Positions 1-18,289 of a stretch of 41,785 nt of DNA are shown piece after piece. Origin of the DNA: Prosthecobacter debontii (lineage in GTDB: Bacteria > Verrucomicrobiota > Verrucomicrobiia > Verrucomicrobiales > Akkermansiaceae). Under the pieces are notes generated by a model. That model worked only from the letters and a program-made list of their open reading frames with translations. It was not told the DNA's origin and searched no databases. The stretch's first letter is position 1, and each line of letters opens with the position of its first letter. The stretch lies in contig CAMBQC010000006.1 in the NCBI GenBank assembly GCA_945869855.1, positions 1 through 41,785 of the forward strand. Direction: 5' to 3'. Both the position numbers and the translations under genes were made by a program.

Positions 1-3000
1 GGTGTCGCGCTCGGCACTGCGGTCGAGGCCTTGGTCGATCAGGCGGAGGTGGATTTTCTCGCCGACGAAGGCTTTGGCGAGCGGCTCGGCGTAGCTGGCG
101 TCCATCACGTCGAGGAAAGGATGGCTTTCGACCTTGAAGATGGCGGTGATCCATTTCACGGCATCGGCGCTGTCCTTGTAGGGGTAGCCGACGTGGACGA
201 TGTCGCCGACTTTCACGGCGAGGCCGTCGGGGATCGCGGAGTCGGGGAGGTCTTCGGCGGATTTGGTGGCGAAGCTGCGGTCGGGCGTTTCGCCGAGGAT
301 GAGCGGGATGGTGAAGGAGAAACGGCCTTCCTCCAGCGGCGGCTCGTTGCCGGGGGCGGTGGGCGGCTGGGCGAGCTGGTAGCCGTCGGGAGTGACGACC
401 TCTGAATTTGTTAGAACACCGGTGAGCTTGAGCGTTCCGGGAGCGGCGACGTCGAAAGGTGGCTTGAGTTCGGTCTGTTTCGCTTTGCGTCCGGCATCGG
501 TCTGGACGTAGGCGTTCACCGTGCTGCTGCCGGCGAGGGCGAGGTGGGGCACGACGACATCGAAGCGCACGCTGGAACCGGCGACGGCGGCGAGGGGTTT
601 CGCGGGATCGGAGTGTTCGAAAATCAGGGCGCGGCGCGGCGCGACGGTTTCCGGCGCGGAGGAGCGGGTGGTGGTTTTCGGCTCGGCGGGCTTTGCGGGC
701 GGTGGGGGGAGCTGCTTGGTGGTGACCGTGTAGGCGGAGAGCGCGGGATCGGTGTAACGGGCGTGCTGGATGACGACGGTGCGCTCGGTGGGGATGCCGG
801 GACTGAGGTTTTCGGCGTCGAGATAGGTGGCTGTTAGGGTACCACCTTCCGTGACCTTGATTTCCGAGTCGCGGCCGGGTTCGGCGTTGACAGGGAAAAT
901 GCGGCCGAGGAACACGCCGCTTTGCTCTTCCGTCTCGACGGCCTTGATGACTGCGTTGCCGCCAGAGGAGGAGGTTACCTTGATGTCGATGATGTCCTTT
1001 TCCGGGCCGGCATCCATGTCCGGATCCTCGATGACGAGGGCGACGGCGTCATCGTAGCGGAAGCGGCGGATGGGCTCCAGGACGAGCTCGCGGCCTTCCT
1101 TGGTCTCGATGTAGGTGAGGAATGAGGCGGAGAGTTTCGCGTCGTTGAAGGCGACGTTGAGGCGTTGTTCGAGGCGGTCGCGTTTCGGCGAGGCGGTGCG
1201 CGGGTCTTCGTAGCGGACGCTGATGCTGTCGCCGGGGAGGACTTCAAGCTGGGTGTTGCCGCGGAGTTCCATGAAGTCTAGGGCGACGGGGAGGAGGGCT
1301 TTGCTTTCCCTGTTGGAAAGAGTGACTTTTTTGATGGTCGGAGCGACGCCGTCGAAGCCGTTGATGACGAGGCGAACGAGGCGGGCGCGGGTCTGGTCGC
1401 CGAAGGCGATGTTCATCATGCTTCCAGCGGGCGTGATTGTGGCGGGTTGGGGCAGTGATTTTTTCAGGTCATCGGGGAAAGTGGCGGGATCGAACATCGC
1501 GTCCGGGCAAAGGATGAGGTCGGGTTTTCCGGCGTCGTCACAGAGGAGGGCGGTTTTGGATTCGAGGAATTTGCCGGGATTATCATGGCGCCAGATCTGG
1601 ATTTCGTGGAGGCCGGGAGGGAGTTCGCGTTCGATGAGCAGGCCGTTGGGAGCATCTTCGGCGGCGGGTGTGCCGTTGAGGAGGAAGATCGTGTTGCCGT
1701 CATCGGGTAGGCCGGTGAGCTGGAAGCGGCGGATCGCGGCGGCGGGTTGGTGGAAGAGGGCACGGTAGCGGATGACCACGCTGTAAGCCGGGTGGCTGGG
1801 GGCGACGAGGGGCAGAGGTGCCGCGGAAAGGGATTTTACATTGGCAGAAAGGAATTTGATAGAGGATCGGTTGGACGTGTAATCCATGATTTCCGCCCAA
1901 TCTTCGGGGAGTTCGCGGCCTTCCGGTTTGCTGACGGGGATGGAATCCGTGCCAAAGGTAGGGAAGGAGGAAACGTGCGGCGAGCCGTCCCAGACCGGGG
2001 TGTCTTCCGGGAAACGGGCGCGGGTGGTCCAGTTTTTGCCGTCGAGGGAGGTTTGGAGGACGAAATTTTTCAGGCTGCTGGCGGCATCGCCGGTATCGAC
2101 GGTCAATTTGTCGATGGGCGCGTTGTCGTTGAGGTCGATGCCGAAGGTGCGGGGTTTGTTGGCGTCGCCGACATTGCCCTGCCAGCCGGGGTATTCGCGG
2201 GAGCTGATGGCCATGTTCGGATCGCGGCCGGGGGCGCTTTCGGAAGCGAAGGCGATGGCCTGCGCGCCGGCGGTGGGGACAATGCCCTGGAACTCGCCGC
2301 TGAAGGGAGAGGTTTCCTTGAGGGCGAGCTGGCGGATCTCATCGCCGCTGGTGGTTTGCAGGCTGACGTTGATTTGATCGTCGCCGGTGGTGAGGCTGCG
2401 GTCGGGATCGGTGACGCGGATGTAAACCGGGTTGCCGGGGCGGACGGTGCGGGTGCCGAGGGCGGCCTGGGAGGTGGAAATGCCGAGTTCCTCGATGTCG
2501 AGGCGGCGCTCGCCTTCGCGGGGCGGGAAGGCACCGGCGGAAAAGGAGAGCATCGCATCCGAGGCGACGCCGATGACGATATCGGGATCGGCGGGGAGGT
2601 CTTTCATTTTCGCACGGAAACGCTCCGAGTAGCCGAAGCGGATTTCGTCGTCGCCGAGGACTTGCAGGATTTTATCGCCGGGAGTGGGGGCGCCGAGGGC
2701 GGTGGACACATCAGCGCGGAATTTCTCTTTGCTATCGCCGAGTTGGTAGAGGAGGACGCGTTCGCGGTCGCCGGATTTCGCCCAGATTTCGACTTCGATG
2801 TCCGCGCCGATGCCGGAGACATTGAGGGTGGGGTCGCGGAGATTGATCTTCACGACTTCGCCGGGGACGATGATCGTCTTGTCCTGGGAGGGGCCGAGTT
2901 CGATCTCGCTGGCCTCGACGAGCTTGCGCATCTCGAAGTGGATTTTCCCGCGGAGGATGAGGGCGTCCGGGTGTTTCGGTTCCTGGCGGAGGACTTGGTC

Positions 3001-6000
3001 GATTTCCTCGAGGGCTTCGGCGTAGCTTTCCTGATCCATCAGCACCTCGGCGCGGGCGTAGCGGATTCTTTTGCGGAAATCTTCATTCTGAAGCTTCATT
3101 AAAATATCGAGCTCGGTCATGGCAGCCCCGAAATTTTTCGAGACGCGATCGACCATCACCGATCCGAGTGCTGCTGTTAGATGAACTTCCGTGCCCTCAT
3201 ACTCGGCTGCTTCGGCAACCTTGCGATACCAGGCGCGGGCGGTAGGCAATGCTCCTTTGCGGAAAGCGAGATCGGCGTAGGCGATTTTGAGTTGTGCGTC
3301 CTGGGCTGAGCTGAGAGTGCCTTCGGCTTGCCGCGACCAGATGGTGAGTTCTTTGATGAGATTTTCGGCTTCCTGATCCCGGCTGGAAGTAATGTTGCGC
3401 TTGAGAAGCCAAAACGAATAATCCACGGAAAGGGAGCGTATGACGGGGATGAGTTGCTCGGAGTGGTTGACATACAATTGCCAAGCGGAATCCTCATTTC
3501 CTAACACGAATTCTGCGTTCGATTTGTAAATGGGATACGCAGGATCGGTTTCATCTACTGAGATATCGACCGCGCCAATCTTGGTAGCCGCATTGCCGGC
3601 CACCTGTTTTAGTCTGCCGATGGTTTTCGCGTAGGTAGGGCTCGCGATATTCGCGGCGAGGGCCTTACCCGCCGCGCTTTTGAGGCCACCTGAGGCGAGG
3701 GTCATGGCTACCGAGGGTTGCTCGGCCGCGAGCGCGGCTTCGGCAAAGAGCGACAACGTATCAGCGTTCTGCCAATACTGGAGATCAGCGGAAGCCTGCC
3801 ACAAACCAGCGGCGATGGGCTCGGCGGAGGACCATTGCTTTTTCTCCTGCAACTCCTTGAGCACGCGCGACACCAACAGCTCGCCACCCGCGCCCCCCCA
3901 CGCAACGACTCCGAGCGGCGCGTTCTCCGCGTAGAGGGAAAACACGAGTTGGCGGGTCTGATCGGACCATTGGGGCAAAGCCGCAACCGGCTGAAGTCCT
4001 CTTACCGGAACAACGGCGGGTGCTGCTGCCGCACGATCCACCACGGTCTTAAGGGCGGCCTCGACGGCGGCGGGCGCGGCGTCTTTCGGCAGGGCCAGTA
4101 ATTCACGGCTGACATACTCGGGATCCGTCGTCAACATGGCGGGCGTCATCGCGATCCGCCCGAAAAGCGCGCGGTGCGCGGCCATGTTGTGATACGCAGG
4201 ATTCATCTTTTCATAGACCGGTGATTTCACCAATGCCTCAAACAGAGCCTTGGCCTCTGGAGTTGCAGGGTTAACGCAATGAAGCCACAGTCCGAAAATC
4301 GGCTCGGACAGGCTCCCAGCCGCCATCTGCAATTGCAGCAGTTTACCGAGGTCTGCTGCCAAAGCAGGCGCGCCAGCACGTACGCCGCCGGTGCCATAAT
4401 CCTCCCATCCGGGATGGAGTGCCGGACCAAAAGCCAGGCCCGAATAGGCATTACCGAATCTGATCTTCGACAGGACTTGCGCGAGAAATTGCTTCTGCAA
4501 CTCCAGCGTTGTAGGCGGTGCGGCGGCGAAATCAGAAACAAGCTTCTGCAAGATCTTCTCTGCATCAGCGGGCGGTGCCTGTTTGAGAAGCCCATCGTAG
4601 AGTGGCAGCAATCCTGGCGTCGCATAATTGCCGCTTTGCAGCTCCTGATAGAGGGCCGTGAAGGCAGTCATCCGGTCCTGGCTTGAGGCCTCCTTCGCGC
4701 CCTGCTTGCTGAACTGGTCGTAACGTGCACCGAGGTTGGCATATTGTTTGCAGAGCGCAGCATGATCGGCTCCATCGCGCTTTGCACCGGAGTTCCATAC
4801 AGTATCAATGGCGGACTTCGCGGAATCGAACCTCCACATTTCAGACTTGATCATCTCCGGAACGATGGCGCTCACGGTATTGGTGCCGGCCACGGCATAG
4901 GCCCGGACGAGCGCCGCGTTGCTGTTAGGGTTGCGCGCCAGCAGCGGCGAAAGCGCCTTCGCCTCGTCCACGGTCAGGGTGGCGTCGAACAACCCCACAT
5001 CAGGTGCGGCCAGCGAGTTGAAAACCGCCGGCACCTTCAATGCCAGCGCCCTCAGCTCGGCCGGGGAAACCAGGACTGAAACCGGCCACCCCTGGGGACT
5101 CGGCGCGGCAAGCACGGCCTGCGCCTGTTGCGGCGGCAGGCTCGCCAGTGCTTTCAGGATCGGAGCGACCTTGGCCTCGCGCTTCGGAGCCAGGTAGTTC
5201 CTGATAACACCACTGTCTCCTTCGCGGATATTCATCCAGCCTTTGGCGGCAAGGATCGATCCCTCGTAGGGCAAAGCGGTCACCAGCGCTTCGGCGGCCT
5301 GCAAGGGTTTCTCGAACAACGAATCCGGTAGCGGCTTGTTCGCCCGGAATAGCTCAGTCGCCTGCTTGCTAAACGGCACAACTTCCATCGCCCAGTTGAT
5401 ACGCGCCTTGTAGGGAGCAGGTAGATTTGGCAAAGCCGCGAGCTTGGCTGCGGCCTTAAGCCAAGAATCGTCCGCTATCGCAAACGATTCCAGCGTCTTG
5501 CAAAGCCATTCGACATCCGCGCCATATTTCACGGCATTTGCCGCATCGGTATTGATAAGCGCTTCAAGGCGGCCGCAAAGTGCAGGAACATCATTACGAG
5601 ACTTGGTCTGAGCGATGAACCATGCGTCAAACTGATGGGCGCGGCCATAAGTGCGGAGGCGGTCGCCGTCCTCGCGCATGAAAAGGTAAGCGCCGTCGGG
5701 ATCGCCGAGATGATTGATCAGGATCCGGTAGCTGGCGGTGACGGCCTCGCCGGCCAACTTGGCGTCGAGGTTGGTCTGTTTGAGTAATTTTCGATAAAAA
5801 CTCACCGCATCTTTCCACTCGCTGGCGTATTCCGCGGCTTTAGCGGCCTGCGTCAAAAGCTCAGCGGATTCCGATTGATTGGATGTCAGCCATCCGCGGG
5901 TTGCGGCAAAGGCTTCGGCACAGCGTTGTTCTTGTATGCCGAGTTTGAGAAGCTCGGCAACATCGGCTTCTTTTTGAGTTTGGGCCTTGCGAAACGTTTG

Positions 6001-6105
6001 AATACGATCGTCCAAAGGCGAGGCATTGGCCAAACCGAGCAAGATCGGCAGAACGAGCATATGCCGGGTGATTCTTTGTAAATTCATTTTATCAAAATTC
6101 ATCAT
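1..6105 (-). CDS. Giant secreted TPR/beta-sandwich protein, C-terminus cut by the window edge
   Basis: An open frame of 2035 codons runs from ATG at 6105 off the left edge with no stop. It starts inside the stop of the upstream giant gene (ATGA overlap, 6102-6105), with GGAAAG about 7 nt upstream, so translation is probably coupled; ATGs at 6102 and 6087 are alternatives. The N-terminus (MNLQRITRH, a hydrophobic stretch, then LANA) is a Sec signal peptide. About residues 30-1050 are helical and TPR-like (for example RKLLKQTNLDAKLAGEA). Beta modules follow, with DxDxD-type loops and ET...SGVF/SGEF motifs (VTDPDRS, IEDPDMDAG) and a PA14-like stretch (FLLNGT ... LPPGLHEIQIW). It aligns along its whole visible length with the neighbouring 2570-aa protein, so the two are tandem paralogues. 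By that comparison about 450 residues, including a C-terminal TPR block, lie beyond the edge. Function is unknown; a periplasmic or surface scaffold is an inference. Confidence 0.85.
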   Translation of the reverse strand, partial: MMNFDKMNLQRITRHMLVLPILLGLANASPLDDRIQTFRKAQTQKEADVAELLKLGIQEQRCAEAFAATRGWLTSNQSESAELLTQAAKAAEYASEWKDAVSFYRKLLKQTNLDAKLAGEAVTASYRILINHLGDPDGAYLFMREDGDRLRTYGRAHQFDAWFIAQTKSRNDVPALCGRLEALINTDAANAVKYGADVEWLCKTLESFAIADDSWLKAAAKLAALPNLPAPYKARINWAMEVVPFSKQATELFRANKPLPDSLFEKPLQAAEALVTALPYEGSILAAKGWMNIREGDSGVIRNYLAPKREAKVAPILKALASLPPQQAQAVLAAPSPQGWPVSVLVSPAELRALALKVPAVFNSLAAPDVGLFDATLTVDEAKALSPLLARNPNSNAALVRAYAVAGTNTVSAIVPEMIKSEMWRFDSAKSAIDTVWNSGAKRDGADHAALCKQYANLGARYDQFSKQGAKEASSQDRMTAFTALYQELQSGNYATPGLLPLYDGLLKQAPPADAEKILQKLVSDFAAAPPTTLELQKQFLAQVLSKIRFGNAYSGLAFGPALHPGWEDYGTGGVRAGAPALAADLGKLLQLQMAAGSLSEPIFGLWLHCVNPATPEAKALFEALVKSPVYEKMNPAYHNMAAHRALFGRIAMTPAMLTTDPEYVSRELLALPKDAAPAAVEAALKTVVDRAAAAPAVVPVRGLQPVAALPQWSDQTRQLVFSLYAENAPLGVVAWGGAGGELLVSRVLKELQEKKQWSSAEPIAAGLWQASADLQYWQNADTLSLFAEAALAAEQPSVAMTLASGGLKSAAGKALAANIASPTYAKTIGRLKQVAGNAATKIGAVDISVDETDPAYPIYKSNAEFVLGNEDSAWQLYVNHSEQLIPVIRSLSVDYSFWLLKRNITSSRDQEAENLIKELTIWSRQAEGTLSSAQDAQLKIAYADLAFRKGALPTARAWYRKVAEAAEYEGTEVHLTAALGSVMVDRVSKNFGAAMTELDILMKLQNEDFRKRIRYARAEVLMDQESYAEALEEIDQVLRQEPKHPDALILRGKIHFEMRKLVEASEIELGPSQDKTIIVPGEVVKINLRDPTLNVSGIGADIEVEIWAKSGDRERVLLYQLGDSKEKFRADVSTALGAPTPGDKILQVLGDDEIRFGYSERFRAKMKDLPADPDIVIGVASDAMLSFSAGAFPPREGERRLDIEELGISTSQAALGTRTVRPGNPVYIRVTDPDRSLTTGDDQINVSLQTTSGDEIRQLALKETSPFSGEFQGIVPTAGAQAIAFASESAPGRDPNMAISSREYPGWQGNVGDANKPRTFGIDLNDNAPIDKLTVDTGDAASSLKNFVLQTSLDGKNWTTRARFPEDTPVWDGSPHVSSFPTFGTDSIPVSKPEGRELPEDWAEIMDYTSNRSSIKFLSANVKSLSAAPLPLVAPSHPAYSVVIRYRALFHQPAAAIRRFQLTGLPDDGNTIFLLNGTPAAEDAPNGLLIERELPPGLHEIQIWRHDNPGKFLESKTALLCDDAGKPDLILCPDAMFDPATFPDDLKKSLPQPATITPAGSMMNIAFGDQTRARLVRLVINGFDGVAPTIKKVTLSNRESKALLPVALDFMELRGNTQLEVLPGDSISVRYEDPRTASPKRDRLEQRLNVAFNDAKLSASFLTYIETKEGRELVLEPIRRFRYDDAVALVIEDPDMDAGPEKDIIDIKVTSSSGGNAVIKAVETEEQSGVFLGRIFPVNAEPGRDSEIKVTEGGTLTATYLDAENLSPGIPTERTVVIQHARYTDPALSAYTVTTKQLPPPPAKPAEPKTTTRSSAPETVAPRRALIFEHSDPAKPLAAVAGSSVRFDVVVPHLALAGSSTVNAYVQTDAGRKAKQTELKPPFDVAAPGTLKLTGVLTNSEVVTPDGYQLAQPPTAPGNEPPLEEGRFSFTIPLILGETPDRSFATKSAEDLPDSAIPDGLAVKVGDIVHVGYPYKDSADAVKWITAIFKVESHPFLDVMDASYAEPLAKAFVGEKIHLRLIDQGLDRSAERDT

Positions 6106-9100
6106 TGCTCGCTTTCCAGCCTTTGAAGTTCAAGGTTGTCTTCCAGGTTCAGCATGCCCTCCTGGGACAGCTGGCCGCGGGCGAAGGCGGCCCATTCGCT
6201 TTCGGGGAAATCGTAGGTGAGGCGTTTGAAGTTCGAGTAGGCGGCCATGGGCTGGCGGAGGGCTTGGTAACTCATGCCCGACCAATACATGGCTTGCGCG
6301 CGGATGGTGACGCCGTCGTAGGAGGGTTCGATGATGACGCGCTTGAAGGCATCGACGGCTTCCTGGTGCTTGTTGGCACGCATGAACGATTGCCCGGCGC
6401 GGAGTCCGGCTTGGCCGGCGAGCGGATCGGTGGGGAAGCGCTCCTGGAGGCGTCCGAAAATGCGGGCGGTCTTGAGGTATTCGGCGATAGCCATCTTGTT
6501 CATCGCCTCACCCTCGAAGGCGGCGTCCTTGTCCGACTCGTCCGCTGCGGCTTTCTCTAACAGCGGCTTAGCCTTCGCTTCGTATTCGGCGGCCTTTTTC
6601 AGGAAATGCGTGCCGAGGCGCGCCATGGAGACGGCGAGGTGCTCGGAGTCCGGGTATTTGTAGGCGAGCTTCACGTATTCCTGGGCGGCGATGTCGGGTT
6701 CCTTGAGGCGCTCGTAGATCGTGGCGATCTGGTATTGCGCCTTGGCGGCGTGCACGGTTTCCGAGTAGCTGCCGGTGATGTTGATGAAGCGGGAAAGCGC
6801 GGCGCGATAGCGGTCTTCCTTGGTTTCGGCGGACTCGGCGGACTCGGCTTCCTCCATGGTGAGGCTGCCTAACAGATACTCGGCGTGGGCGCGGGTGGCA
6901 GGGTCGTTGAACTGATCCATCGCGCTGGCGAGGAGTTGCTTGGCGGTGACGTAGTCGAGATCGGCCAAGTCGTTTTCGCCGAGCTTGCGGCGGCGTTTGG
7001 CGATTTCCAGGTAGGCCTCGGCAAGCGAGAACTGGGTGCGCATGGCGATCTCGGGGTCGTCGTATTTTTTCGAGAACGGCTGGACGAGGCCGTCCGCGCC
7101 CTTGCTGATCGTGACCATGCGGGTGGCGGTTTTCACGCCGTTCGCATCGGTGTAGCGGGCGGCGATGGTATCGCCGTAGGTGACGGGAAAACCGTTGGCG
7201 CGGACATCGTAGGGGGCGGGCTCGGCGCCTTCCACGGGGGGCTCGGGGGCGGCGGAGGCTCCGGCGTAAGAGAGCTGATAAGAGCCTTTGAAAATGCCGG
7301 TGTGAGTGCCGCTCTCGTGGAGCTCGACGGTGTGCTTGGCACCAGATTTCGCCTGGACGAGGACTTTCACGGTGTCGGCACCGTCCGTCAGATCGGCGCC
7401 GGGATCGACGACGCGGAGGTTGAGGTTTTCCCCAACATAAGCGGCGGTCATGGTCGCGCGGTGGTCGGCGGCCATGAGGTCGAACGCGGGATGGGTGACG
7501 ACTTTGGTGGTGGCGGTTGCCCATTTTTCCGCGCCATCGGGAGTGGTGTAGCGGAAACCGATGTGGACATTTTCGCCGGGGCGGACGACGAGGCCGTTGG
7601 GGTTGAGATCGATGCTTTGCGAATCGTCGAGGGATTCGCGCATGGTTTTCGCGAGCTCGTAGCGTTCCTGGAAAGTCATCGCACCGACCTCCGGGAGGGT
7701 GCCTAGGATGAGCGGGACAGTGACGAAGAAGCGGTCGAGGTCGGGGTTCTCACCGAAGCCTTTGAGTTGAGAGATTTGGTAGATAGGCAGGGCAGGAACG
7801 CCGCGCCATGCGTCGCCGCCGGGTTTGAAGGCGTTGAGGTCGGCTTCTAACAAGAGCGTTCCGGGAACATTCTTGTCAAAGCCCTCGGCGTTGCTGCCAG
7901 CGGTGCGGCGGCCTTCATCGGTCTGGGCGAAGACTTCGATTTTTGAGGTCACGCCCAAGGCCATTTGCGGGGCGAGGATTTCCAGATAGAGTTGCTGGCC
8001 GAGGACGGCTTGGAAGCCGCCTTCGGGGGCTTTGGTGGTGGGGAGCAGGGCTTGATTGACCTGCCATGAAGCGCGGATCGCTTCGCTGGTGGCATCGGGT
8101 TTATCGTCGCTGAGGCGCTCGAAGCCGTGGTGAAGGGCGGCGGGGATCCCCTGCCCTTCGATGGGGGTGACGGTGGCGTGGGTAAGGCGGATCTGCGGCT
8201 CGGTGTAGGCTGCGTGGCGTATCGTGCCGACGCGTGGAGTGGGGACGCCGGGGCGGTTGTTTTCATGATCCGTGTAGCGGGCGGTGATGATGCCGCCATC
8301 GGGGACTTGGATTTCGCTGCTGTCCTTCGCGGTGCCGGAGACCGGCTTCACTACTAGCTTGAAAATGCCGGTGGAGTCGCCGGTTTCGGTGGCTTCGAAT
8401 TCCTTGCTGCCGGTGGAGGTCTCTAGGGAAACCTTCACTTTGTCGGGCGCGACGGTGGAGTCCATGTCGGCATCGTGGATGGCGAGGGCGAGCGGCTTGC
8501 CGTGGAGGAAACGGATGAGCTTTTCGTAGTAGGGGCGATCCTCGTTGTGGTGGCCGTCGAAGCGCGGTTCCATGTCGGCGAACTCGGCGCGGGCGTCGGT
8601 GAAGGAGACATCGAGGAAACGCTCGTGGCGTTCGCGGGTTTTGGTGATGAAGCGGTCATCGACGTAGCGGACGGAGATTTTGTCTCCTGTCAGGATCTCC
8701 AGCGTTTCGTTCTTGTTGAGTTCGGCGAAATCGGTGGGCACAGGGAGGATTTTCGCGCCATCGGGTTTGGTGAGGGCGAGCTTGTTGAGGGCGGGGACGG
8801 TGCCCTGGTGGGCGACCATGACGAGGCGGATGAGGCGGGCGCGGGATTTGTCGGCGAACTTCACCTTGAACTCGGAGGAGTCGGCGTTCGCGGTGACGGC
8901 GGCGGGGGCGTTGCGGTGATCGAGGACGGCGGGCGGGAACGTGGCGGGATCGAAGTAGGTGTCCGGCCAATCGACGAAGGCTTCGGGGTCGATGAGGTTG
9001 GCGCGGAGTTTCACCTCTCGGCCGAAGCCGATGTTCGAGAGCCAGCCGGTCGCCCAGATTTCTATCTTGTGGATACCGGGCCTGAGGTTGATTTCGCCCT

Positions 9101-12100
9101 GGAGCTGGCGTTGGTCTTTGGTGGTGATGACCTTGCCGTTGACGGCGATGAGGAACTCGGCGGGCTGGGCTTTCTGTTTGTCGTCGGCGGGGATTTTGAG
9201 ATCGGGGATGTTTCCTAGGTCGAGGGCGAAGCGGCGGGTGACGTCTTCCTTTTCGTGGAAGTAGGCTTGGAAACGGACGACGACGGCGGGGTTTGGGTAG
9301 GGGCCGCGCATCCATTTGACATCGGTGACGATGGATTCGGGCAGTGCGGTGGAAACTCCGGTGACATTTTTGGCGATGGCCATATCCGGTGTGTTGACGA
9401 GCCAGCCTGTATTCATGTGCTGGCGAGCCTGATCGATGTCATAGACCGAACGCGCGCCGTAATGGGCTTTGTTGGGTTCTTCATTGACCACAGTTACGGA
9501 GGGTTTCCATGGATCGGAGATGGCAATTTTGGAAGTAGGGTGAGTGCCTACTGTTGTCCAATCGCTGGGGTTCATCGCGGTCTGGACGATGAATTTCGTG
9601 AGGCCGGCGGCGGGCTCTTTGGCAGTGATGGTGAGTTCGCCGAGGGGGAGGTTGTCGTTGAGATCGACGGTGAAATCGGGCATGGCATCCTTGACGGCGA
9701 CGGGGCGCCAGGCGGGGTAATCGGTGAGCGGGCTGATGACCATGTTCGGCGCGCGGCCTGGCTCCGAGTTTTGCGCGAAGGCGCTGGCCTGCGCTCCGGT
9801 CGTGGGGATGATGCCCTCGAAAATACCGGAGTGGGTGGAGGTTTCCTTGAGCGTGACGCGGGAAATGGAATCGCCGCTGGAGGCACTGGCACTGATGGTG
9901 AGCTCGTCAATTTCAGCGGTGCGAGAGCGGTCGGAATCAGAAACGCGGACGTGGATGGGGTTGCCGGGCTTGGCGATGGTGGCGATGTGGCGCTCGTGGT
10001 CGAGATTGGCCTCGCCCGCGGCGATTTTGGCTTTGGCGGCGGCTTCGGTGTTTGCGCCGGCACCGATTTCCTCCATGACTAGCTGCATGTCGGCGCTGCG
10101 TTGCTCGGCCTCGGTGAGGAGCTTGCGGGCGGAGGCCATCAGCGTGGCATCCGAGGCGACGGTGATCGGGCCGCCGCGCCTTTCCTCCATGTTGTTCATC
10201 TTCACGCGGAAGCCCTCGGAGTAGGCGTAGAAGACCTCGTCATCGCCGATGACCTGGAGGGTGTTGTCGGCTGGATTGGGTGCGCCGAGGGCGGTGGCGA
10301 CCTCGCCGCGGAACTTGGTTTTTTCATCGCCGAACTGGCGGAGGAAGAAGGTTTCCTTGTCGCCGGAGGTGGCCCAGACGACGACCTCGATCTCGGTGCC
10401 CGCACCGGAGACGGCGAGGGTGGGATCGCTGAGGGTCACCTTCAAACGCTCGCCGGGGACGATGGATTTCTGTGCGGAAGTGGAGCCAAGCTCGACCTCG
10501 GTGGCTTCCATGAGCTTCTGGCGCTTGAGCTGGATTTTTCCCAACAGGATGCGGGAGTCGGCATGGTTCGGTTCGCGGGCGAGGATGGAATCGACGTCGT
10601 CCTTCGCGTCATCGAAATCCTCGCGGTCGAAATATACCTCGGCACGGGCGAAGCGGACCGGCGTCCAGATTTCCGGAATGCGCTCGAGTTCGAGGTCGAT
10701 GAGGGTCTGGAGGGCGGCGTCGTAATTTTTCGAGATGCGCTCGGCGCGGACGCGGCGGAGGGAGGCTTCGTGGCGGATGGGAAGCTCGGCGTAGGCGGGG
10801 TTCTCGCGGGTGCGGGAGTAGAGCTCGTGGGCTTGGCGGACTTGGCCGCGCTGGAGGGCGATGTCTCCGTAGGCGAGTTCGATAGTGGCCTTTTCCGCGG
10901 GGGTGAGGGGCGAAGTGGCTTCGGCGGACCAGTCGATGAGGGATTTCACAAGGAACTCCTGACGGGATTCATCGCGGCCGAAGATCGTGCGCTCGAGAGT
11001 CCAGAGCAGGAAAGGAATGGAAAGTTCGCGGTGGGTGGTGGTGAAGACCTCCCAGTTGGCATCGAGGAGTTTCCAGGCGGAGTCCTCGTTGGCGGACATC
11101 CATTCGGCCTGGGCCTGATAGACGGGGTAGGAAGGATGGGTGGGGGCGACAGGGATGGTGATCAGGCCGAGCTTGCTGGCGGCCTTGCTGCGGATGCCCT
11201 TGAGGCGCGGGATGTCGGCATCGGCCTGGAACCAGGTGTGGCCGCCGGCGTGGCGTTCGATCACGCCCAAGCCGTCGTTGGCGAAGGCATAGGAAACGGA
11301 CGGGTTGGTTTCCAGCGTGGACTCGGCGAGGGTGAGCATGGCCGGGTAGGTGCGGTGATTGACGGCGACGTGACGCCAGAGATAGCCGGAGGTGCGGAGC
11401 AGGTCGGCGGGATCGTTGCGTTTTGCGAGGGCGTCAAAAATGCGGTTCGCGAAGAGCGGGGTGGGCTCGATGGTGAGACGCCTGTCGATGAGTTCGACAC
11501 AGAGCTTGTGAAGATTCTCATCGGCGAAGGCTTCTTCCGAAATCGCGGCCAAATTCTCCAAGCCCTGGATTTCGTAGAAGACGTTGGATTTCCGGAGGCC
11601 TTCGATCGCAGCGGTGAGAGCGGCGGTGGCGGCGGCGGCATCGGCTTCCTTGGGGAGTTCGGTCAAAGCCTTGCAAAGAAGGGCCTGGTTGGCGGAATCG
11701 AGCCAAGTGGCCTCCCCCGGAGTCATCGCATCCTTATTGAACCACTCGCGGGCACCAGACTGCACTTGAAACGGCATCGTCGCCCAAGCCGGAGACTTGA
11801 ACAGCGCCTGCATGAGCTTGACCGATTCAACGTTGTTCTCCGGGAACTGCACGTTGATCCAGGCCATCGTCAGCCATGGCTCGATCTTTCCCTGCGCCAA
11901 TTGTTCCGCCACGGCGGCACGCAACGCCGGTTCGAGCGGGTGTGGCGCGTAGAGGGGCAGGGCGACTTGCTTCATCCGTTCGATGCCGCCGTGGACGGCC
12001 GCAAGGCGTTGGATCCAGGGCGAATATACAGAGACAGAAATGCCACGTATCCGCTCGTCACGTTCCAGCGATCCCTTGGCATCCTCGATCCCTGTAGAGA

Positions 12101-13814
12101 TCGCATCGCGCACCATGCTTCTGGCTTCGGGGTTCGGATCCTTCAAAAGTTCCGGGATCACTTCAGGCGTGAATTTCAGCACAGCTACCAAGCGCGAGCG
12201 CACGGCAGGGATTTTCGGCTGAGGGGACTTGTAATCCGCCCACAGGTTCCGGAACACCGCGATGCGATTGTCGGCAGGGTCTTCCTTTTTCGCGTCCGCG
12301 GCGGCGAAGCTTGCCGCCAGCGCCTTGGATTTATTGATCCATTCGTCGCGTTTGGCATTCTCACCCGGACGGCCGCAGTAATGCCAGAGCTGGTCGGCCC
12401 AGGATCCGTTCAACTCATTCGGGCCTAGACGCCAGGCCTCGGGGCCGAGAAATGCGGCCATGACCTTGTCGAAATCCTTGCCGCCCGCCGCGATCGCGCG
12501 CACCAGCGACACCTCGGGATGGGCGATTTGCTCCAATCTCGGCGCCAGGTTCTGCGCCTCTTCCAGGGAGAGCTGGTTCCATTCCCGCGGCAGGATCACC
12601 ACGCCAGTCCGGAGCTTCCACAACTCCGGTGTTGCGCGCACATGGTTCCGCACCTCGCGGATATCAAGGACCCCGGGGGTGGACACATAACCGCCATAGG
12701 CCGCGGCAGACAGCACTTCCGCCGCTTCCGCCGGAGGCAACTTGGAAAGGACCGCCATGATCGGCGCCATCTTGGCATCGGCCTCATGCGGCCAGTATTT
12801 TTTGAAATCGCCGCGATAATGCGGGCCGTTTCCACCGCCAGACCAACCGGTCATCACCCACAGCGCATAGTGAGGGAATTTCCCGAGGAGCGCGGATGCC
12901 TCGGCGACGGGCGGCGGGGTATCATCGCCCATCTCAAGTTTCTGTTCCTCCACCACCGCCCCCTCGGCGGACTGCTTGCCGGCTTTCTTACCGCCCTTTT
13001 TCTTGCCGCGGATACCGATCTTGCCTTTCGTTTCATCGCCGAATCTCGAGAGATTGTAGGCCTTTACCGAAACGGCCCAGTCGAGACGCAGTTTCATTTC
13101 CTCACTGTGCGTCATCACGTCGCAAAGATCCTTGATCGCATCATAGAGGTCCTGGGATAGCGGCGCCTTCCCCGGTTGGTCGCAGTAGCCATCGACCGAA
13201 TCGAGCAGCCAGATGAAACACTGGCTGTATTGGGTGTTGAGAAGATCCAGGGGGACTCCGGCCGTGATGCTGGCATTCAGGCGCTTGGCCAAAGCCGTCG
13301 GGTCGTTGCGCTTCACGGCCTCGTTCAGAAACCAGCGGTCGAACTGGCGGAAGGAAGGGTTGACGGCGAGGCGGGCGGCTTCGTTTTGGGCAAAGACGTA
13401 GGCTCCTGCGGCGTCATCGAGGCGGTAGATGAGGAGGGTGTGGACGGCGGTGATGGACTCGCCGGCTTCGGGGGATTTCGGGTCGGCGAGCTTGAGGGCC
13501 TGCTGGTGGAAGGAAACGGCGTTCTTGGTTTCGCCGGCGAGTTCGGAGGCGCGGGCGGCTTGGAAAAGGAGGGCGGGGCTTTTCGGAAGGTTACGGCGGA
13601 GCCATTCGCTGGCGAGGGCGACGGCGGGCGCGGGTTTGTTCTCCTCGATGCCGGCGGTGAGCAGGGCGAGGATGGCTTGCTCGGATTGCGTTTCGAGGGA
13701 AGCGGCGACGGTGGCGCGCTGTTCCTCGAAGGTGGCGGCGTGGAGCGGCGCTGACAGCAGGAGGGCTGACAGGGCTACCAGGGATGTAGTGGATGGGGAC
13801 ATTTTTTTAACCAC
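6102..13814 (-). CDS. Giant secreted TPR - beta-sandwich - TPR protein (about 2570 aa)
   Basis: The function is not recognised. In order: a signal peptide (hydrophobic core LVALSALLLSAPLHA); a long helical repeat region (about 30-1090) with a Lys/Gly-rich insert near 270 (RGKKKGGKKAGK); beta modules from about 1110 to 2330, with VSDSDRS, IHDADMDS and VVDPGADL loops and ET..SGIF, ETG.STGIF and ESGTHTGIF motifs; a PA14-like segment (FLIAVNGK ... LRPGIHKIEIW); and a C-terminal TPR block (about 2330-2570) resembling BamD/CpoB-type periplasmic TPR proteins (YKYPDSEH, RFPTDPLAGQAG). The signature TALGAPNPADNTLQVIG starts near residue 1174. The start is uncertain. GTG at 13814 gives MVKKMSPS, with the basic n-region a signal peptide needs. 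ATG at 13802 is the alternative. Neither has a Shine-Dalgarno sequence, and the GTG lies inside an intergenic repeat. The stop overlaps the start of the downstream paralogue by 4 nt, so the pair is co-translated. Confidence 0.88.
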   Translation of the reverse strand: MVKKMSPSTTSLVALSALLLSAPLHAATFEEQRATVAASLETQSEQAILALLTAGIEENKPAPAVALASEWLRRNLPKSPALLFQAARASELAGETKNAVSFHQQALKLADPKSPEAGESITAVHTLLIYRLDDAAGAYVFAQNEAARLAVNPSFRQFDRWFLNEAVKRNDPTALAKRLNASITAGVPLDLLNTQYSQCFIWLLDSVDGYCDQPGKAPLSQDLYDAIKDLCDVMTHSEEMKLRLDWAVSVKAYNLSRFGDETKGKIGIRGKKKGGKKAGKQSAEGAVVEEQKLEMGDDTPPPVAEASALLGKFPHYALWVMTGWSGGGNGPHYRGDFKKYWPHEADAKMAPIMAVLSKLPPAEAAEVLSAAAYGGYVSTPGVLDIREVRNHVRATPELWKLRTGVVILPREWNQLSLEEAQNLAPRLEQIAHPEVSLVRAIAAGGKDFDKVMAAFLGPEAWRLGPNELNGSWADQLWHYCGRPGENAKRDEWINKSKALAASFAAADAKKEDPADNRIAVFRNLWADYKSPQPKIPAVRSRLVAVLKFTPEVIPELLKDPNPEARSMVRDAISTGIEDAKGSLERDERIRGISVSVYSPWIQRLAAVHGGIERMKQVALPLYAPHPLEPALRAAVAEQLAQGKIEPWLTMAWINVQFPENNVESVKLMQALFKSPAWATMPFQVQSGAREWFNKDAMTPGEATWLDSANQALLCKALTELPKEADAAAATAALTAAIEGLRKSNVFYEIQGLENLAAISEEAFADENLHKLCVELIDRRLTIEPTPLFANRIFDALAKRNDPADLLRTSGYLWRHVAVNHRTYPAMLTLAESTLETNPSVSYAFANDGLGVIERHAGGHTWFQADADIPRLKGIRSKAASKLGLITIPVAPTHPSYPVYQAQAEWMSANEDSAWKLLDANWEVFTTTHRELSIPFLLWTLERTIFGRDESRQEFLVKSLIDWSAEATSPLTPAEKATIELAYGDIALQRGQVRQAHELYSRTRENPAYAELPIRHEASLRRVRAERISKNYDAALQTLIDLELERIPEIWTPVRFARAEVYFDREDFDDAKDDVDSILAREPNHADSRILLGKIQLKRQKLMEATEVELGSTSAQKSIVPGERLKVTLSDPTLAVSGAGTEIEVVVWATSGDKETFFLRQFGDEKTKFRGEVATALGAPNPADNTLQVIGDDEVFYAYSEGFRVKMNNMEERRGGPITVASDATLMASARKLLTEAEQRSADMQLVMEEIGAGANTEAAAKAKIAAGEANLDHERHIATIAKPGNPIHVRVSDSDRSRTAEIDELTISASASSGDSISRVTLKETSTHSGIFEGIIPTTGAQASAFAQNSEPGRAPNMVISPLTDYPAWRPVAVKDAMPDFTVDLNDNLPLGELTITAKEPAAGLTKFIVQTAMNPSDWTTVGTHPTSKIAISDPWKPSVTVVNEEPNKAHYGARSVYDIDQARQHMNTGWLVNTPDMAIAKNVTGVSTALPESIVTDVKWMRGPYPNPAVVVRFQAYFHEKEDVTRRFALDLGNIPDLKIPADDKQKAQPAEFLIAVNGKVITTKDQRQLQGEINLRPGIHKIEIWATGWLSNIGFGREVKLRANLIDPEAFVDWPDTYFDPATFPPAVLDHRNAPAAVTANADSSEFKVKFADKSRARLIRLVMVAHQGTVPALNKLALTKPDGAKILPVPTDFAELNKNETLEILTGDKISVRYVDDRFITKTRERHERFLDVSFTDARAEFADMEPRFDGHHNEDRPYYEKLIRFLHGKPLALAIHDADMDSTVAPDKVKVSLETSTGSKEFEATETGDSTGIFKLVVKPVSGTAKDSSEIQVPDGGIITARYTDHENNRPGVPTPRVGTIRHAAYTEPQIRLTHATVTPIEGQGIPAALHHGFERLSDDKPDATSEAIRASWQVNQALLPTTKAPEGGFQAVLGQQLYLEILAPQMALGVTSKIEVFAQTDEGRRTAGSNAEGFDKNVPGTLLLEADLNAFKPGGDAWRGVPALPIYQISQLKGFGENPDLDRFFVTVPLILGTLPEVGAMTFQERYELAKTMRESLDDSQSIDLNPNGLVVRPGENVHIGFRYTTPDGAEKWATATTKVVTHPAFDLMAADHRATMTAAYVGENLNLRVVDPGADLTDGADTVKVLVQAKSGAKHTVELHESGTHTGIFKGSYQLSYAGASAAPEPPVEGAEPAPYDVRANGFPVTYGDTIAARYTDANGVKTATRMVTISKGADGLVQPFSKKYDDPEIAMRTQFSLAEAYLEIAKRRRKLGENDLADLDYVTAKQLLASAMDQFNDPATRAHAEYLLGSLTMEEAESAESAETKEDRYRAALSRFINITGSYSETVHAAKAQYQIATIYERLKEPDIAAQEYVKLAYKYPDSEHLAVSMARLGTHFLKKAAEYEAKAKPLLEKAAADESDKDAAFEGEAMNKMAIAEYLKTARIFGRLQERFPTDPLAGQAGLRAGQSFMRANKHQEAVDAFKRVIIEPSYDGVTIRAQAMYWSGMSYQALRQPMAAYSNFKRLTYDFPESEWAAFARGQLSQEGMLNLEDNLELQRLESEQ

Positions 13815-13849
13815 GGATTACACGGATGGCACGGAAGGAAGAGGGATGG
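13800..13849. repeat. 9-nt-period intergenic repeat, copy 1
   Basis: A T-tract followed by AACCACG and three consecutive 9-mers (CACGGATTA, CACGGATGG, CACGGAAGG at 13812-13838), then AAGAGGGATGG. The same layout recurs at 16391-16440. The T-tract side abuts the start of the 2570-aa gene, so the repeat forms its immediate 5' leader. Elements of this look are common in Verrucomicrobiota and Planctomycetota intergenic regions as I recall them; their function is unknown. Confidence 0.7.
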
Positions 13850-13861
13850 TGGAATTTGGAA

Positions 13862-13880
13862 CCACGAAAGGCACGAATTG
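13862..13880. repeat. Partial 9-nt-period repeat
   Basis: CCACGAAAGG followed by CACGAATTG: two 9-mer units in the same register as the repeats at 13812 and 16403. It sits directly against the left inverted repeat of the element at 13882-14048, which may have inserted into or beside this copy. Confidence 0.5.
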
Positions 13881-13881
13881 C

Positions 13882-14048
13882 GGGGAGCGCACGCGCCATC
13901 GCGTGCTGTTTTCGGCGCCCTCGCCGGAAACTCGGCTTGAAGATGTGTGATGGCTCGAGCCCAGATCCCGAGGCGATGACGAACCTTGATTCCAGCCGCC
14001 GAGCAGCAAGGGCGCAGCCCGGAACACGCGAGGGCGCGTGTGCTCCCC
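13882..14048. repeat. MITE-like element with 24-bp terminal inverted repeats
   Basis: The left arm (13882-13905, beginning GGGGAGCGCACGCGCC) and the reverse complement of the right arm (14025-14048) match at 22 of 24 positions. Imperfect similarity continues inward, with GCGCCCT in the same register on both sides. The 167-bp unit has no convincing coding capacity. The mirrored ends suggest a miniature transposable or REP/BIME-like intergenic element. No clear target-site duplication was seen. Confidence 0.6.
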
Positions 14049-14063
14049 GTCGGCTTTGCCGAC
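14049..14063. other. Perfect hairpin GTCGGC-TTT-GCCGAC
   Basis: A 6-bp GC-rich stem with a 3-nt loop, immediately outside the right inverted repeat and 23 bp past the stop of the minus-strand 764-aa gene. No T-run follows on the minus strand, so it is a weak terminator candidate at best. It may be part of the adjacent repeat element. Confidence 0.45.
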
Positions 14064-14086
14064 GTAATGCTCATCGCTTATCGGTC

Positions 14087-16381
14087 TCATTCTTCTTTGG
14101 TTTCGGGTTCTTTTTCCCCTTCCAGGCCGGAGAGGCGCTTGCGGGCTTCGGCGACGTATTGGCTGGTGGGGTAGTCGAAGAGGAGTTGCTGGAGTTTTGC
14201 CTTGGCGGTGGCGGTGTCGTCCATGCGGAAGGCGACGTTTGCCCAGAGCAGGAGCATTTCATCGAGGAAGGCGGCGTCGGGGTATTCGGCGAAGACGCTT
14301 TCCAACAATCCGGCGGCCTGGGCGAAGCTATCGGTCTCGACATAGTGGCGGACGACTCGACCGAGGGCTTCGGCAGCGTAGGAGCTTTCTGGGTAAGTCT
14401 GGTAGGTCTTTTGGTAGGCGTTGATCGCAGCGTTCATGCGGGTTTGCAGGGCAGTGGCGGCGTTGAGCCCGGCCTTGCCCCACTTGCTGTTGTGCTCATC
14501 GGCGGCGGCGGTGAGGGCTTCGGCTTCTTTCGCAAGAACTTCGCCGATACGGAACTGCGCCTCGGCGGCGGAGATCGGGTTTTCAAGCTCCAGCACGCGG
14601 GCATAGACTTCGGTGGCCTGTTTGTATTCGCCGCGGTCGGCGAGGGAGCGGCCGAGGGTCATGAGCGCTTGGTCGGCGAGAACGGACTCGGGGTAGAGGC
14701 GGTTGAAGGCGAGGCAGGTCGCCATCGCGGAGGTGAAATCGTTTTTCAGCAGCTCGCTTTCCCATTTCAGCTTGAAGGCCTGCTCGACGAGATCGCCGGG
14801 GAGTTTGGCTCGGTTGACGATGATGGGGTCGATCTTGTTGAGCGATTCGTTGGCGCGTTCGGAGGCGCGTTGGTCGAGTCCCATGTCTTTGTAGATGGAT
14901 CCGAGGCCGACTAGGGCTTCGGCTTCGACGGAGCCTTTGCGGGCTTTGAGAAGTTCCTCGAAAACGACGTATTGGTCAGCGGTGACGCCGGAGTTCACGG
15001 AGCCGGAAACCTTGATGCGGGTTTCGGAATCGCGGGTCTCATCGCCGTAGAGGTGGACTTTGTCGGAGTAGGAAATGGAGAGTTCGTCGAGCTCGGCGGT
15101 GTGGAGGATGGCGTCCTTGTTGGTGGGTTCGACTCCTTCCTTGAGCGGGGCGAGCGGGATTTTCCCGAGGAAAACTCCGCTGCGGATTTCGGCGCCTTCG
15201 CCGGTTTCGGTGAGGGTGACGGTGATGGAGTCGCGCTCGATCCACTGGTCTTTTTCGTCGTCCTCCATGGCGAAGATGTCCAACAGCTCCTCGCTTTCGG
15301 CGGCGGCTTTGTCTTCGGTTTTGAAGAGGGATTTTACGGTGAGGGTGATCGTTTCGGCGGCGGGCGAGGTGTCGAGATCTGCGTCGCGGAGCATGACGAC
15401 CTGGGGCTGGCCGGGGTAGGCGATGTAGGCGGGTGTGGAGTTGTCGCCGAGGTAGAAGCCGACGGTGCCGGTGCTGACGGCGCGGACTTTTCCGTTGCGG
15501 GGAATGCCTTTGCTGCCGTCGAGCGTGGAGTCATCGAGATAGATGACTTCGAGGGTATCGCCGCCGACCATCTGGAGGACGCCGTCGTTGGGTTTGGCGG
15601 TGCCGAGGGCGGTGGGTGCGGAGGCGAGCATTTCATCGGTTTTCCCGGGGACGGGGACGCCGGTGATGATCTCGGCGTCGCCGCTGCTGACTTTGACGCT
15701 GGCCTGCACGGGCTGGTCGAGCTTGCGCATGACGGGGACGTCGGCATCGACGATTTTGGCGTAGAAGCGCTGCCCGATCTCGATGCGGCCGAGGTCATCG
15801 GCCTCGGTATCGGCGACCTCGGTGCCGACGAGCGAGAGGGAATCGATGGCCTTGTTCCAGTTCCCCATGTGGTAGTGGCTCATGCCGATGTAGAAGTAGG
15901 CCTGGTTCGCCCATGTGGTTTTCCCCGCGACCTCGGTGAGGCGGCGGAACATCGGGAAAGCGGCGGCGTATTGGCCGGCGGTGTATTGGGTGAGGCCGGA
16001 TTGGAAAAGGGACTCCTGGTAGAGAGCGATCTCGTCCTCGGGTTGTTCCTCGCCGGGGACGGGGGCGAGGACGCGGGTGAGGAGCATGAAGTGGTTGAGG
16101 GCGTCGGCGGTGTTGCGTTGCTCGAGGAAATGTTTGCCCATGGCCATGTGGGCGCGGTGGGCGAGGATGTTGCCCTGGTTGTCGCGGACGATGGAGTTGA
16201 GCATGGCGAGGCCGCGCTCGTGCTGCTTGTAGTCCATGAGCTCCATGGCCTTGTCGAAAAGGTGCTTTGCCTGGGGGTCGAGCTCGCCGGCGGCGCGGGG
16301 GCGCTCCGGGGCGGGGGCGGCCTCTTCCTGGGCGCGGGTGATGAGTGTGGTGAGGAGGAGGAGAGGGATGAGGGACTTCAT
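14087..16381 (-). CDS. Secreted TPR - beta - TPR protein (764 aa), smaller relative of the giants
   Basis: I chose ATG at 16381 because it gives a clean signal peptide (MKSLIPLLLLTTLITRA, then QEE). The open frame extends 47 codons upstream through repeat-derived sequence, which I regard as non-coding. An N-terminal TPR region (about 40-220: AMELMDYKQHERGLAML, YFYIGMSHYHMGNWNKAID) is followed by beta sequence (about 225-520) with MLRDADLDT and LTETGEGAEIRSGVF, the same loop and EtG..sGvF motifs as in the giants. A C-terminal TPR block follows (about 520-760: LAFNRLYPESVLADQALM, YPESSYAAEALG). The signature TALGTAKPNDGVLQMVGGD begins at residue 257. The acidic insert SEELLDIFAMEDDEKDQW interrupts one beta module. 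Probably a periplasmic or surface structural protein acting with the two giants; this is inferred from shared architecture and neighbourhood. Confidence 0.87.
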   Translation of the reverse strand: MKSLIPLLLLTTLITRAQEEAAPAPERPRAAGELDPQAKHLFDKAMELMDYKQHERGLAMLNSIVRDNQGNILAHRAHMAMGKHFLEQRNTADALNHFMLLTRVLAPVPGEEQPEDEIALYQESLFQSGLTQYTAGQYAAAFPMFRRLTEVAGKTTWANQAYFYIGMSHYHMGNWNKAIDSLSLVGTEVADTEADDLGRIEIGQRFYAKIVDADVPVMRKLDQPVQASVKVSSGDAEIITGVPVPGKTDEMLASAPTALGTAKPNDGVLQMVGGDTLEVIYLDDSTLDGSKGIPRNGKVRAVSTGTVGFYLGDNSTPAYIAYPGQPQVVMLRDADLDTSPAAETITLTVKSLFKTEDKAAAESEELLDIFAMEDDEKDQWIERDSITVTLTETGEGAEIRSGVFLGKIPLAPLKEGVEPTNKDAILHTAELDELSISYSDKVHLYGDETRDSETRIKVSGSVNSGVTADQYVVFEELLKARKGSVEAEALVGLGSIYKDMGLDQRASERANESLNKIDPIIVNRAKLPGDLVEQAFKLKWESELLKNDFTSAMATCLAFNRLYPESVLADQALMTLGRSLADRGEYKQATEVYARVLELENPISAAEAQFRIGEVLAKEAEALTAAADEHNSKWGKAGLNAATALQTRMNAAINAYQKTYQTYPESSYAAEALGRVVRHYVETDSFAQAAGLLESVFAEYPDAAFLDEMLLLWANVAFRMDDTATAKAKLQQLLFDYPTSQYVAEARKRLSGLEGEKEPETKEE

Positions 16382-16552: not shown

Positions 16553-18289
16553 TCATTTTTCCGCCTCTGCCTCGCCGCCGACGAGGGCGACGCCGTAGCT
16601 TTCGAGGCGGTCGTGTGCGGCGGCGGACTCGCCGGTTTTCGGGTAGCGGCGGAGGACGGTGCGGAGCTGTCCGACCTCCCTGGCCTTGTCGCCGGAAATC
16701 TTGTAGATGTCCGCGATGCGCAGGCTGGCCTTGGAGGCGACAGCGCCGCCAAGGGATTCGAGTTCGCCGACGGTCTTGATCGCCTGGTCGTATTGCTTGA
16801 GGGCGGTGAGACTTTCCGAAATGCCCCAGGTGGAATCCGGCTGCTTGTTGGCGGCGCGGAAGGCCTCGATGGCTTCCTCGTGGCGGGCGAGTCCCTGGAG
16901 GAGGGAGGCCTTTGTCCAAGTGAGGCCGTCGGCGTATTGGGGGGATTTGAGGAGTTCGGGGATCTCGATGAGGGCTTTTTCCATGTAGGGCGGGTTGCGG
17001 TAGCTACGGGAAAGGTAGTAGTCGAAGCGGGCTTTGGTGGCGAAGAGCTTGTCCTTGATGCGGGCGAGGTGGCGGAGGACGTCTTCCTCGGTCTGGTAGC
17101 TGGCGGCGAGCATGGCATAACGCTTGATTTCCTCGTCGGTCATGCCGTCGGTGCGGATGGCGCGCATGACGAGCTGAGCCTCCTCGTGCATCTGGTGCGG
17201 GTGCTGGAGCCTGGCGATGAGTTCCATGAGTTCGGCGGGTTTCAGGGAAGCGATCAGGGGCTGGGTTTGCTTCGCGAAAAACGCCGAGCGGAACTTGGGA
17301 TCGGGCTGGAGGTATCCGCACCATTGGAGCGCGCGGTCGATGGTGGCGGGTTTGAGGGCGAACTGTTTTTCCATGCGCGCCTGCCAGCCAGCGGGATTTT
17401 TTTCGTGGACGAGGGTGGCATCGCAAAAGAGGCGGCGGAGGTCGTCGTTTTCCGTGAAACGCTCGCCCATTTTCGCTGTCCAGTAGGCGCAGGATTTTTC
17501 GCGGGCGGCGGAGTCCTCGTTTTTTTCGAGAGCGGTTGCTAGGACGGTATACCAGTAACGGGCGTCCTCCTCGGGCTTGTCGGTGTTGCGCCCGTCGCCA
17601 TTGAAACCGCTGGCGGCGATGAAGAATTCCTTGAGTTTTTCATGGTTCGGGCTGCGGGTGACGTAGTGCAGGATGACGGCCTTGCGTGCGGCCTCGGCGG
17701 CTTGGGGGTTGGTTTTGAGGAAAGCGACGGCGGTGCGCCATTGGTATTCGGCGGCGTCCTCGTGTTTGCCGAGTTTCTGCATTTCCGTGCCGAGGTGGAT
17801 GAGGGCGGTGCCGGAGTTCGGCTGGGTGACGTAACCGTCGTCCTTGACCATGCGAGCCCAGACGGCGGTCTGTTTTTCCGCCTCGCCGTTCTGGCCGTGG
17901 CACTCGCCGATGTGGAAGAGGGCGGCGGCGGCGTAGGCGACATCATCGGGGAAGTAATCGACGACATCCTGGTAGGCTTTGATGGCGGCGTTGCGCTTGT
18001 CGAGCTTGTGGAGGCAGCGGCCTTGGCGGAGGAGGACGTAGGGCAGGGCTTTGCTTTTGGGGAACTCGAAGGAGTAGGCCTTGTAGGCGGCGTAGGCTCC
18101 CTGGAAGTCCTTGGCGATGTAGAGTTTGTCGGCGTCTTCAAGGTTCACGCCCTCGAAGGTGTCGAGTTTCGCGAAGGCCTCGCCGGGGTAGAGGATTTCC
18201 TGGCCCGCCTGCTGAGCAGAAACGCACGCGCCGGCGAGCAGCCAGGCGCAGAGTGTGGGCAGTGAAAGGAGGCGGAGGGTGCGTAACAT
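16553..18289 (-). CDS. Secreted TPR protein (578 aa)
   Basis: ATG at 18289 gives an N-terminal export signal (MLRTLRLLSLPTLCAWLLAGACVSA, then QQ). Cleavage after VSA is likely, though the Cys in LAGAC leaves a lipoprotein possible. The mature protein is almost wholly helical repeats: LYIAKDFQGAYAAYKAYSFE, RNAAIKAYQDVVDYFPDD and AALFHIGECHGQNGEAEKQ near the N-terminus, and LLQGLARHEEAIEAFRAA and RIADIYKISGDKAREVGQ near the C-terminus. These are typical Sel1/TPR-type periplasmic tracts. No enzymatic motif is visible. It sits 55 bp after the polytopic membrane protein and 171 bp before the TPR-beta-TPR gene, all on one strand, so it is probably part of the same envelope cluster. A binding scaffold is inferred; the partner is unknown. 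Confidence 0.85.
   Translation of the reverse strand: MLRTLRLLSLPTLCAWLLAGACVSAQQAGQEILYPGEAFAKLDTFEGVNLEDADKLYIAKDFQGAYAAYKAYSFEFPKSKALPYVLLRQGRCLHKLDKRNAAIKAYQDVVDYFPDDVAYAAAALFHIGECHGQNGEAEKQTAVWARMVKDDGYVTQPNSGTALIHLGTEMQKLGKHEDAAEYQWRTAVAFLKTNPQAAEAARKAVILHYVTRSPNHEKLKEFFIAASGFNGDGRNTDKPEEDARYWYTVLATALEKNEDSAAREKSCAYWTAKMGERFTENDDLRRLFCDATLVHEKNPAGWQARMEKQFALKPATIDRALQWCGYLQPDPKFRSAFFAKQTQPLIASLKPAELMELIARLQHPHQMHEEAQLVMRAIRTDGMTDEEIKRYAMLAASYQTEEDVLRHLARIKDKLFATKARFDYYLSRSYRNPPYMEKALIEIPELLKSPQYADGLTWTKASLLQGLARHEEAIEAFRAANKQPDSTWGISESLTALKQYDQAIKTVGELESLGGAVASKASLRIADIYKISGDKAREVGQLRTVLRRYPKTGESAAAHDRLESYGVALVGGEAEAEK

Follow-up and report, generated by a model that had tools for sequence, protein, structure and literature searches.

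A predicted S-layer-type Ig-like module in giant and short TPR proteins encoded beside ExbB-ExbD genes

Three neighbouring large proteins of Prosthecobacter debontii carry one short signature of the pattern TALG...P.D..LQ..G.D. This raises the question of whether the signature marks a common module, whether that module defines a protein family, and what the genes that carry it may do together. The window, which is the whole stretch of DNA that was analysed, is 41,785 nucleotides long. In a six-frame search of the window, the pattern matched exactly three times, all on the minus strand and each within one of three adjacent genes:

1 to 6105, minus strand: P0001, a giant TPR/beta protein, 2035 aa within the window and cut by the contig end (translation)
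2647 to 2703, minus strand: TALG signature in P0001 (six-frame pattern search)
6102 to 13814, minus strand: P0002, a giant TPR/beta protein of 2570 aa, full-length paralog of P0001 (translation, alignment)
10239 to 10295, minus strand: TALG signature in P0002 (six-frame pattern search)
14087 to 16381, minus strand: P0003, 764 aa, with a signal peptide, TPR, two beta domains and TPR (translation, AF2 model)
15557 to 15613, minus strand: TALG signature in P0003 (six-frame pattern search)

The signature and its Ig-like module

The three strings lie at residues 1135, 1174 and 257 of the respective proteins, where the first-pass annotation had placed them and where the translations have them; residue 257 is counted in the 764-aa P0003 from the ATG at 16381. 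A profile built from the copies of the giants alone found the P0003 copy (E 8.5e-9), and a profile built from short proteins alone found the copies of P0001 (E 7.7e-12) and P0002 (E 1.7e-12). The shuffled-sequence control for the signature profiles gave 0 matches in 500. Judged by sequence, the likeness among the three proteins is homology beyond chance, and the proposal that three proteins of one cluster share a module is supported by these profile tests. The two giants are full-length paralogs: over the 2179 columns of their alignment, P0001 and P0002 are 30% identical (E 0). Their signature copies therefore count once, and three independent occurrences of the motif are ruled out. What P0003 has in common with the giants is confined to the beta region; its architecture is otherwise different.

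The N-termini of the TPR/beta proteins are signal peptide-like. The AF2 model of P0003 has a mean pLDDT of 82.6; in it, the signal helix is followed by a TPR region (residues 36-182), a first beta domain (198-301), a second beta domain (306-458) and a further TPR region (470-753). The signature had been thought to sit at the helical-to-beta junction; in the model it instead lies in the C-terminal half of that protein's first beta domain (pLDDT mostly 65-93), where it forms strands 257-259 and 269-271 and the start of strand 276-283. It corresponds to the C-terminal strands of an Ig-like beta domain of approximately 95 residues with the consensus PG..l.v.v.D.d ... v.V...SGD.e ... (etG..tG)F.g.i.TalG.p.pgDg.LqV.GgD.i.v.Y.d. 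There are four to six copies of this module in each giant, and a profile from the first modules alone detects the weaker later copies in each. The later copy at residues 1948-2040 of the C23 giant was found with E 4e-9, and several others with 1e-5 to 1e-7. Carbohydrate-binding domains in the giants score under the Pfam cut-offs. The domains placed in the window are as follows:

811 to 1047, minus strand: later module copy in P0001, residues 1687-1765 (profile search)
2014 to 2244, minus strand: candidate F5/8 type C (galactose-binding-like) domain of P0001, which recurs in orthologs but scores under the Pfam cut-off
2269 to 2454, minus strand: second module copy in P0001, weaker, without the TALG string (profile search)
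2587 to 2916, minus strand: predicted S-layer-type Ig-like module with the signature, P0001 (profile search)
7275 to 7451, minus strand: last module copy in P0002, residues 2122-2180 (profile search)
8262 to 8510, minus strand: later module copy in P0002, residues 1769-1851 (profile search)
9795 to 9983, minus strand: second module copy in P0002, weak, residues 1278-1340 (profile search)
10176 to 10511, minus strand: predicted S-layer-type Ig-like module with the signature, P0002 (profile search)
15008 to 15466, minus strand: second beta domain of P0003, residues 306-458 (AF2 model)
15494 to 15826, minus strand: predicted S-layer-type Ig-like module with the signature, P0003, beta domain 1 of the model (profile search, AF2 model)

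The possibility that the module is an existing Pfam domain was not borne out, as no Pfam family scored over its cut-off and no NCBIfam model covers the module. The predicted models and Foldseek agree on an Ig-like beta sandwich fold. With the P0003 model, the best Foldseek match was the S-layer protein of Nitrosopumilus maritimus (8c8k_A, E 1.1e-7). With the beta region of P0002, whose model has a mean pLDDT of only 68, the top match was the same S-layer protein (8c8m_A, E 1.1e-20), and next came Ig stacks of the alpha-2-macroglobulin-like kind. VIA-align listed TPR matches alone for P0003 and is therefore uninformative on its beta domains. A relation in sequence was found through the broadened profile A5 only, which matched residues 1518-1594 of 8c8k_A (E 2.2e-8) with no other PDB chain below 0.7, whereas the narrow profile A1 found no relative in the PDB.

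Profile and predicted model together identify the module as an Ig-like domain of S-layer type. In the published structure, the N. maritimus S-layer protein is an array of Ig-like domains (PMC11153153). This protein (PDB 8c8k/8c8m) shares with the module the core D.D.N ... GD ... ETG..TG.F.G ... GD.i...Y.D. It differs in being an archaeal lattice protein of Ig arrays only, without TPR, and the available part of that source describes no linked motor (PMC11153153). The model of the Kustd1514-family anammox S-layer (NCBIfam NF052345) also matched P0001 and P0002 weakly, at 30-38 bits, but these matches are far under its 1400-bit cut-off and cover Ig-like stretches only.

Gene clusters with ExbB and ExbD

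With one genome scanned per species, 254 relatives of the 764-aa family were found. Among the best 80 of these, essentially all belong to Verrucomicrobiota or Planctomycetota by record title. Three loci (L142, L101 and L110) are titled Bacteroidales or Kuenenia stuttgartiensis; they hold ordinary planctomycete-type clusters at approximately 50% identity and are probably misnamed MAGs.

Gene order was counted at loci with enough flank only. The giant lies downstream of the short protein in 64 of 66 testable loci, and is followed by ExbB in 52 of 55 and by ExbD in 44 of 54. Upstream of the short protein are DUF1501 (56 of 60 testable loci) and PSCyt/PSD1 (57 of 60). The Pfam content of the orthologous clusters comprises MotA_ExbB, two ExbDs, DUF4159, DUF1501 and PSCyt1/PSCyt2/PSD1, with ExbB (PF01618) and ExbD (PF02472) above the Pfam cut-offs; one TolQ-like gene with two TolR-like genes is the motor make-up of these clusters. 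ExbB and ExbD (TolQR) form a 5:2 proton motor, in which an Asp in the transmembrane helix of ExbD carries the proton. This Asp is kept in 86 of the 88 ExbDs of the named loci, and one of the two exceptions reads X just after the Asp.

The window ends inside P0001, and the motor genes of its own genome are located just past the contig end, on contig C26. The order there is the remainder of P0001 (about 427 aa), a small protein, ExbB, ExbD, ExbD, a small TM protein, DUF4159, and 386-aa and 1323-aa homologs. This is the gene order of the relative G016.

There are three paralogous cluster lineages. Type B starts with PSD1-DUF1501; type A, which is that of the window, opens with a TPR protein and contains two giants; the third is A-like with one giant. 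Type A clusters additionally encode DUF6288 with HEAT and PDZ (Pfam). In the tree of the short protein, each of the three types holds both phyla, with some long branches uncertainly placed, and the genome of the window carries types A and B. The small TM protein has a T-x3-H motif in type A. Its type B counterpart was considered as a TonB-like protein; this was dropped, as its helices are mostly without the TonB-like His. The type A cluster of the window begins with the following gene:

16553 to 18289, minus strand: 578-aa TPR protein, with orthologs in G016, G004 and G044

Further observations concern the surroundings of the clusters. A 686-aa membrane protein (window 18345-20405) and a 275-aa protein that reads as L,D-transpeptidase-like (20465-21292) are conserved in position upstream of the G016 cluster, and not in G004 or G044. 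As read from the translations, type II secretion/type IV pilus F-/E-like genes and then argD-/argF-like genes occupy 35225-38865 and 38825-40984, and homologs of argD/argF are likewise found on the flank of the G004 type A cluster. At L080 (1-10950), ExbD-TM-DUF4159-TPR is followed directly by PSD1-DUF1501-short, which appears to be a tandem of type B clusters. L095 has a second PSD1/DUF1501 pair on the opposite strand.

The module beyond the clusters

Matches to the module were found beyond this locus, in at least 21 of 288 Verrucomicrobiota genomes and at least 31 of 244 Planctomycetota genomes. The strongest are ORF pairs of approximately 750-850 aa and 2400-3000 aa. A restriction of profile hits to large TPR/beta proteins of the two phyla in similar clusters had been named as possible support for a new family. 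Such a restriction holds for the strong matches, which fall almost only in such pairs with the same gene order, and does not extend to the weaker ones, which fall in M36 peptidase, DUF11, GEVED/NHL, TonB-like and other large surface proteins, including surface proteins without adjoining motor genes. Pfam has no separate entry for the module, which is a domain widespread among surface proteins. The new-family reading is thus supported in part only: that the motif or module by itself defines a new protein family is not supported, since the domain is repeated within each protein, is related to the Nitrosopumilus S-layer protein and is also present in unrelated surface proteins. The family-like unit is the ExbB/ExbD-linked pair of TPR/beta proteins, not the motif.

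Two single cases may be added. An unannotated 595-aa ORF on a conjugative Novosphingobium megaplasmid (L207, 5551-7335) carries the module with E 6e-10. The planctomycete genome G431 (9.0 Mb) has at least nine contigs with short or giant TPR/Ig ORFs (e.g., L166, L197, L198 and L202), a strong expansion of the TPR/Ig system in one genome.

Among module-bearing ORFs outside the TPR/beta pair, ExbB and ExbD adjoin in 11 loci, which are CBM9-type and not independent events because they are largely one family. The proteins of these loci that were read combine a long charged TolA-like linker with CBM9 and end in the module. CBM9 scored over the Pfam cut-off in four of the five module-bearing transducers scanned and under it in one; L164 gave no CBM9 match. 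An N-terminal single TM helix with S-x3-H, as in TonB/TolA, is present in seven module-bearing proteins beside ExbB-ExbD. The module-bearing proteins beside ExbB-ExbD at L177 (G361) and L182 (G415) have a TM helix without the TonB-like His and are a variant of the CBM9-like group. The TonB/TolA C-terminal domain (PF03544, PF06519) gave no Pfam match in the scanned cluster genes or the module-bearing transducers. The C-terminus of these transducers is CBM9 and the Ig module, not a TonB/TolA domain; the S-layer-type module serves here as the outer end of TonB/TolA-like proteins.

A probable trans-envelope role for motor and giants

The giants and the motor probably constitute a PMF-linked trans-envelope system of Verrucomicrobiota and Planctomycetota, with the signature as the last strands of its repeated S-layer-type Ig domain. 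Through this system, energy from the inner membrane may reach the cell surface. The ExbB-ExbD motor would act on the TPR/Ig giants through TM proteins and TPR docking, with the TPR parts docking to inner-membrane partners. The Ig and carbohydrate-binding-like (F5/8C-like) parts would face the outer membrane, the surface layer or glycan, and the force would arrive at the outer face of the envelope. Gene order alone suggests that the motor and the giants are in physical contact. The general layout would work like AglRQS-Glt of Myxococcus or the Tol/Ton systems.

It is unlikely that the giants are instead a static envelope or surface-layer scaffold of S-layer-like arrays, with ExbB/ExbD serving their export or an unrelated transport and exerting no force on them. 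Such a scaffold would agree with the kinship between the Ig modules and S-layer proteins and with the module in motor-less surface proteins, but the ExbB/ExbD gene order is conserved across two phyla and three paralogous lineages, and the module ends a TonB-like protein beside ExbB-ExbD.

There is little probability that the clusters encode a Tol-Pal-like system for outer-membrane maintenance or division in which the 764-aa protein is an overgrown CpoB/YbgF. P0003 passes the cut-off of NCBIfam TIGR02795 (YbgF) with 99.1 against 90.1 bits, summed over four stretches; its C-terminal TPR stretches are what it has in common with CpoB/YbgF, and its TPR fold neighbours include YbgF. The architecture of CpoB is approximately 260 aa, encoded in a tolB-pal operon. 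P0003, at 764 aa with two central Ig-like domains, is unlike this in size and architecture, and no TolB, Pal or TolA domain was found by Pfam among the scanned cluster genes and neighbours. The patchy spread of the module among Verrucomicrobiota is also unlike that of a core envelope function. P0003 passes the TIGR02795 score with an architecture and a neighbourhood unlike those of CpoB, and an automatic label of "tol-pal system protein YbgF" will mislead here.

A surface motility machine, gliding or adhesin-moving, as a strict counterpart of Agl-Glt is improbable for these mostly uncultured species, although by analogy the motor make-up is that of AglRQS of Myxococcus xanthus, with one TolQ/ExbB-like and two TolR/ExbD-like proteins and large TPR proteins (GltD, 1191 aa; GltI, 4132 aa), and the available part of that source reports no S-layer-type Ig modules in the Glt TPR proteins (PMC3169522). 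The outer-membrane beta-barrel parts of Glt were not seen in the clusters studied here, the NCBIfam Glt models had no match in P0001-P0003, and the likeness is one of make-up.

For the PMF-linked trans-envelope system favoured above, the most likely job is to take up, move or arrange material of the cell surface, either polysaccharide or components of the surface layer. Polysaccharide as the cargo is a guess, favoured on the ground that chondroitin sulphate enters Planctomycetes in a way that is not understood, and the uptake of large polysaccharides across the planctomycete outer membrane is likewise called unknown in mechanism (PMC5520146). A tentative further proposal, possible rather than likely, is a proton-driven machine in which ExbB-ExbD moves S-layer-type Ig arrays on giant TPR and TonB/TolA-like proteins to capture or move surface polysaccharide, with DUF1501 and PSCyt/PSD1 as its enzymes. 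The literature searched holds no description of an ExbB-ExbD-linked TPR/Ig system and nothing that links DUF1501 or DUF1549 with ExbB/ExbD.

The function of motor-linked force transducers of the PVC group is also not known (PMC12204202). An ExbB-ExbD cluster with carbohydrate-binding-like, S-layer-like giants and upstream DUF1501/PSD1 offers a concrete gene set for both the polysaccharide-uptake and the force-transducer question. Among the scanned genes of types A and B, Pfam found no vWA match, though a vWA fold below Pfam detection may be present. The PVC vWA force-transducer loci, reported in 2025, have a TPR gene, a tolQ-like gene, a tolR-like pair and then a putative transducer, as here; the clusters of types A and B differ in having DUF4159 instead and in their giant TPR/Ig proteins (PMC12204202). 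These loci may be a sister system of the clusters analysed here, and they are the closest published description.
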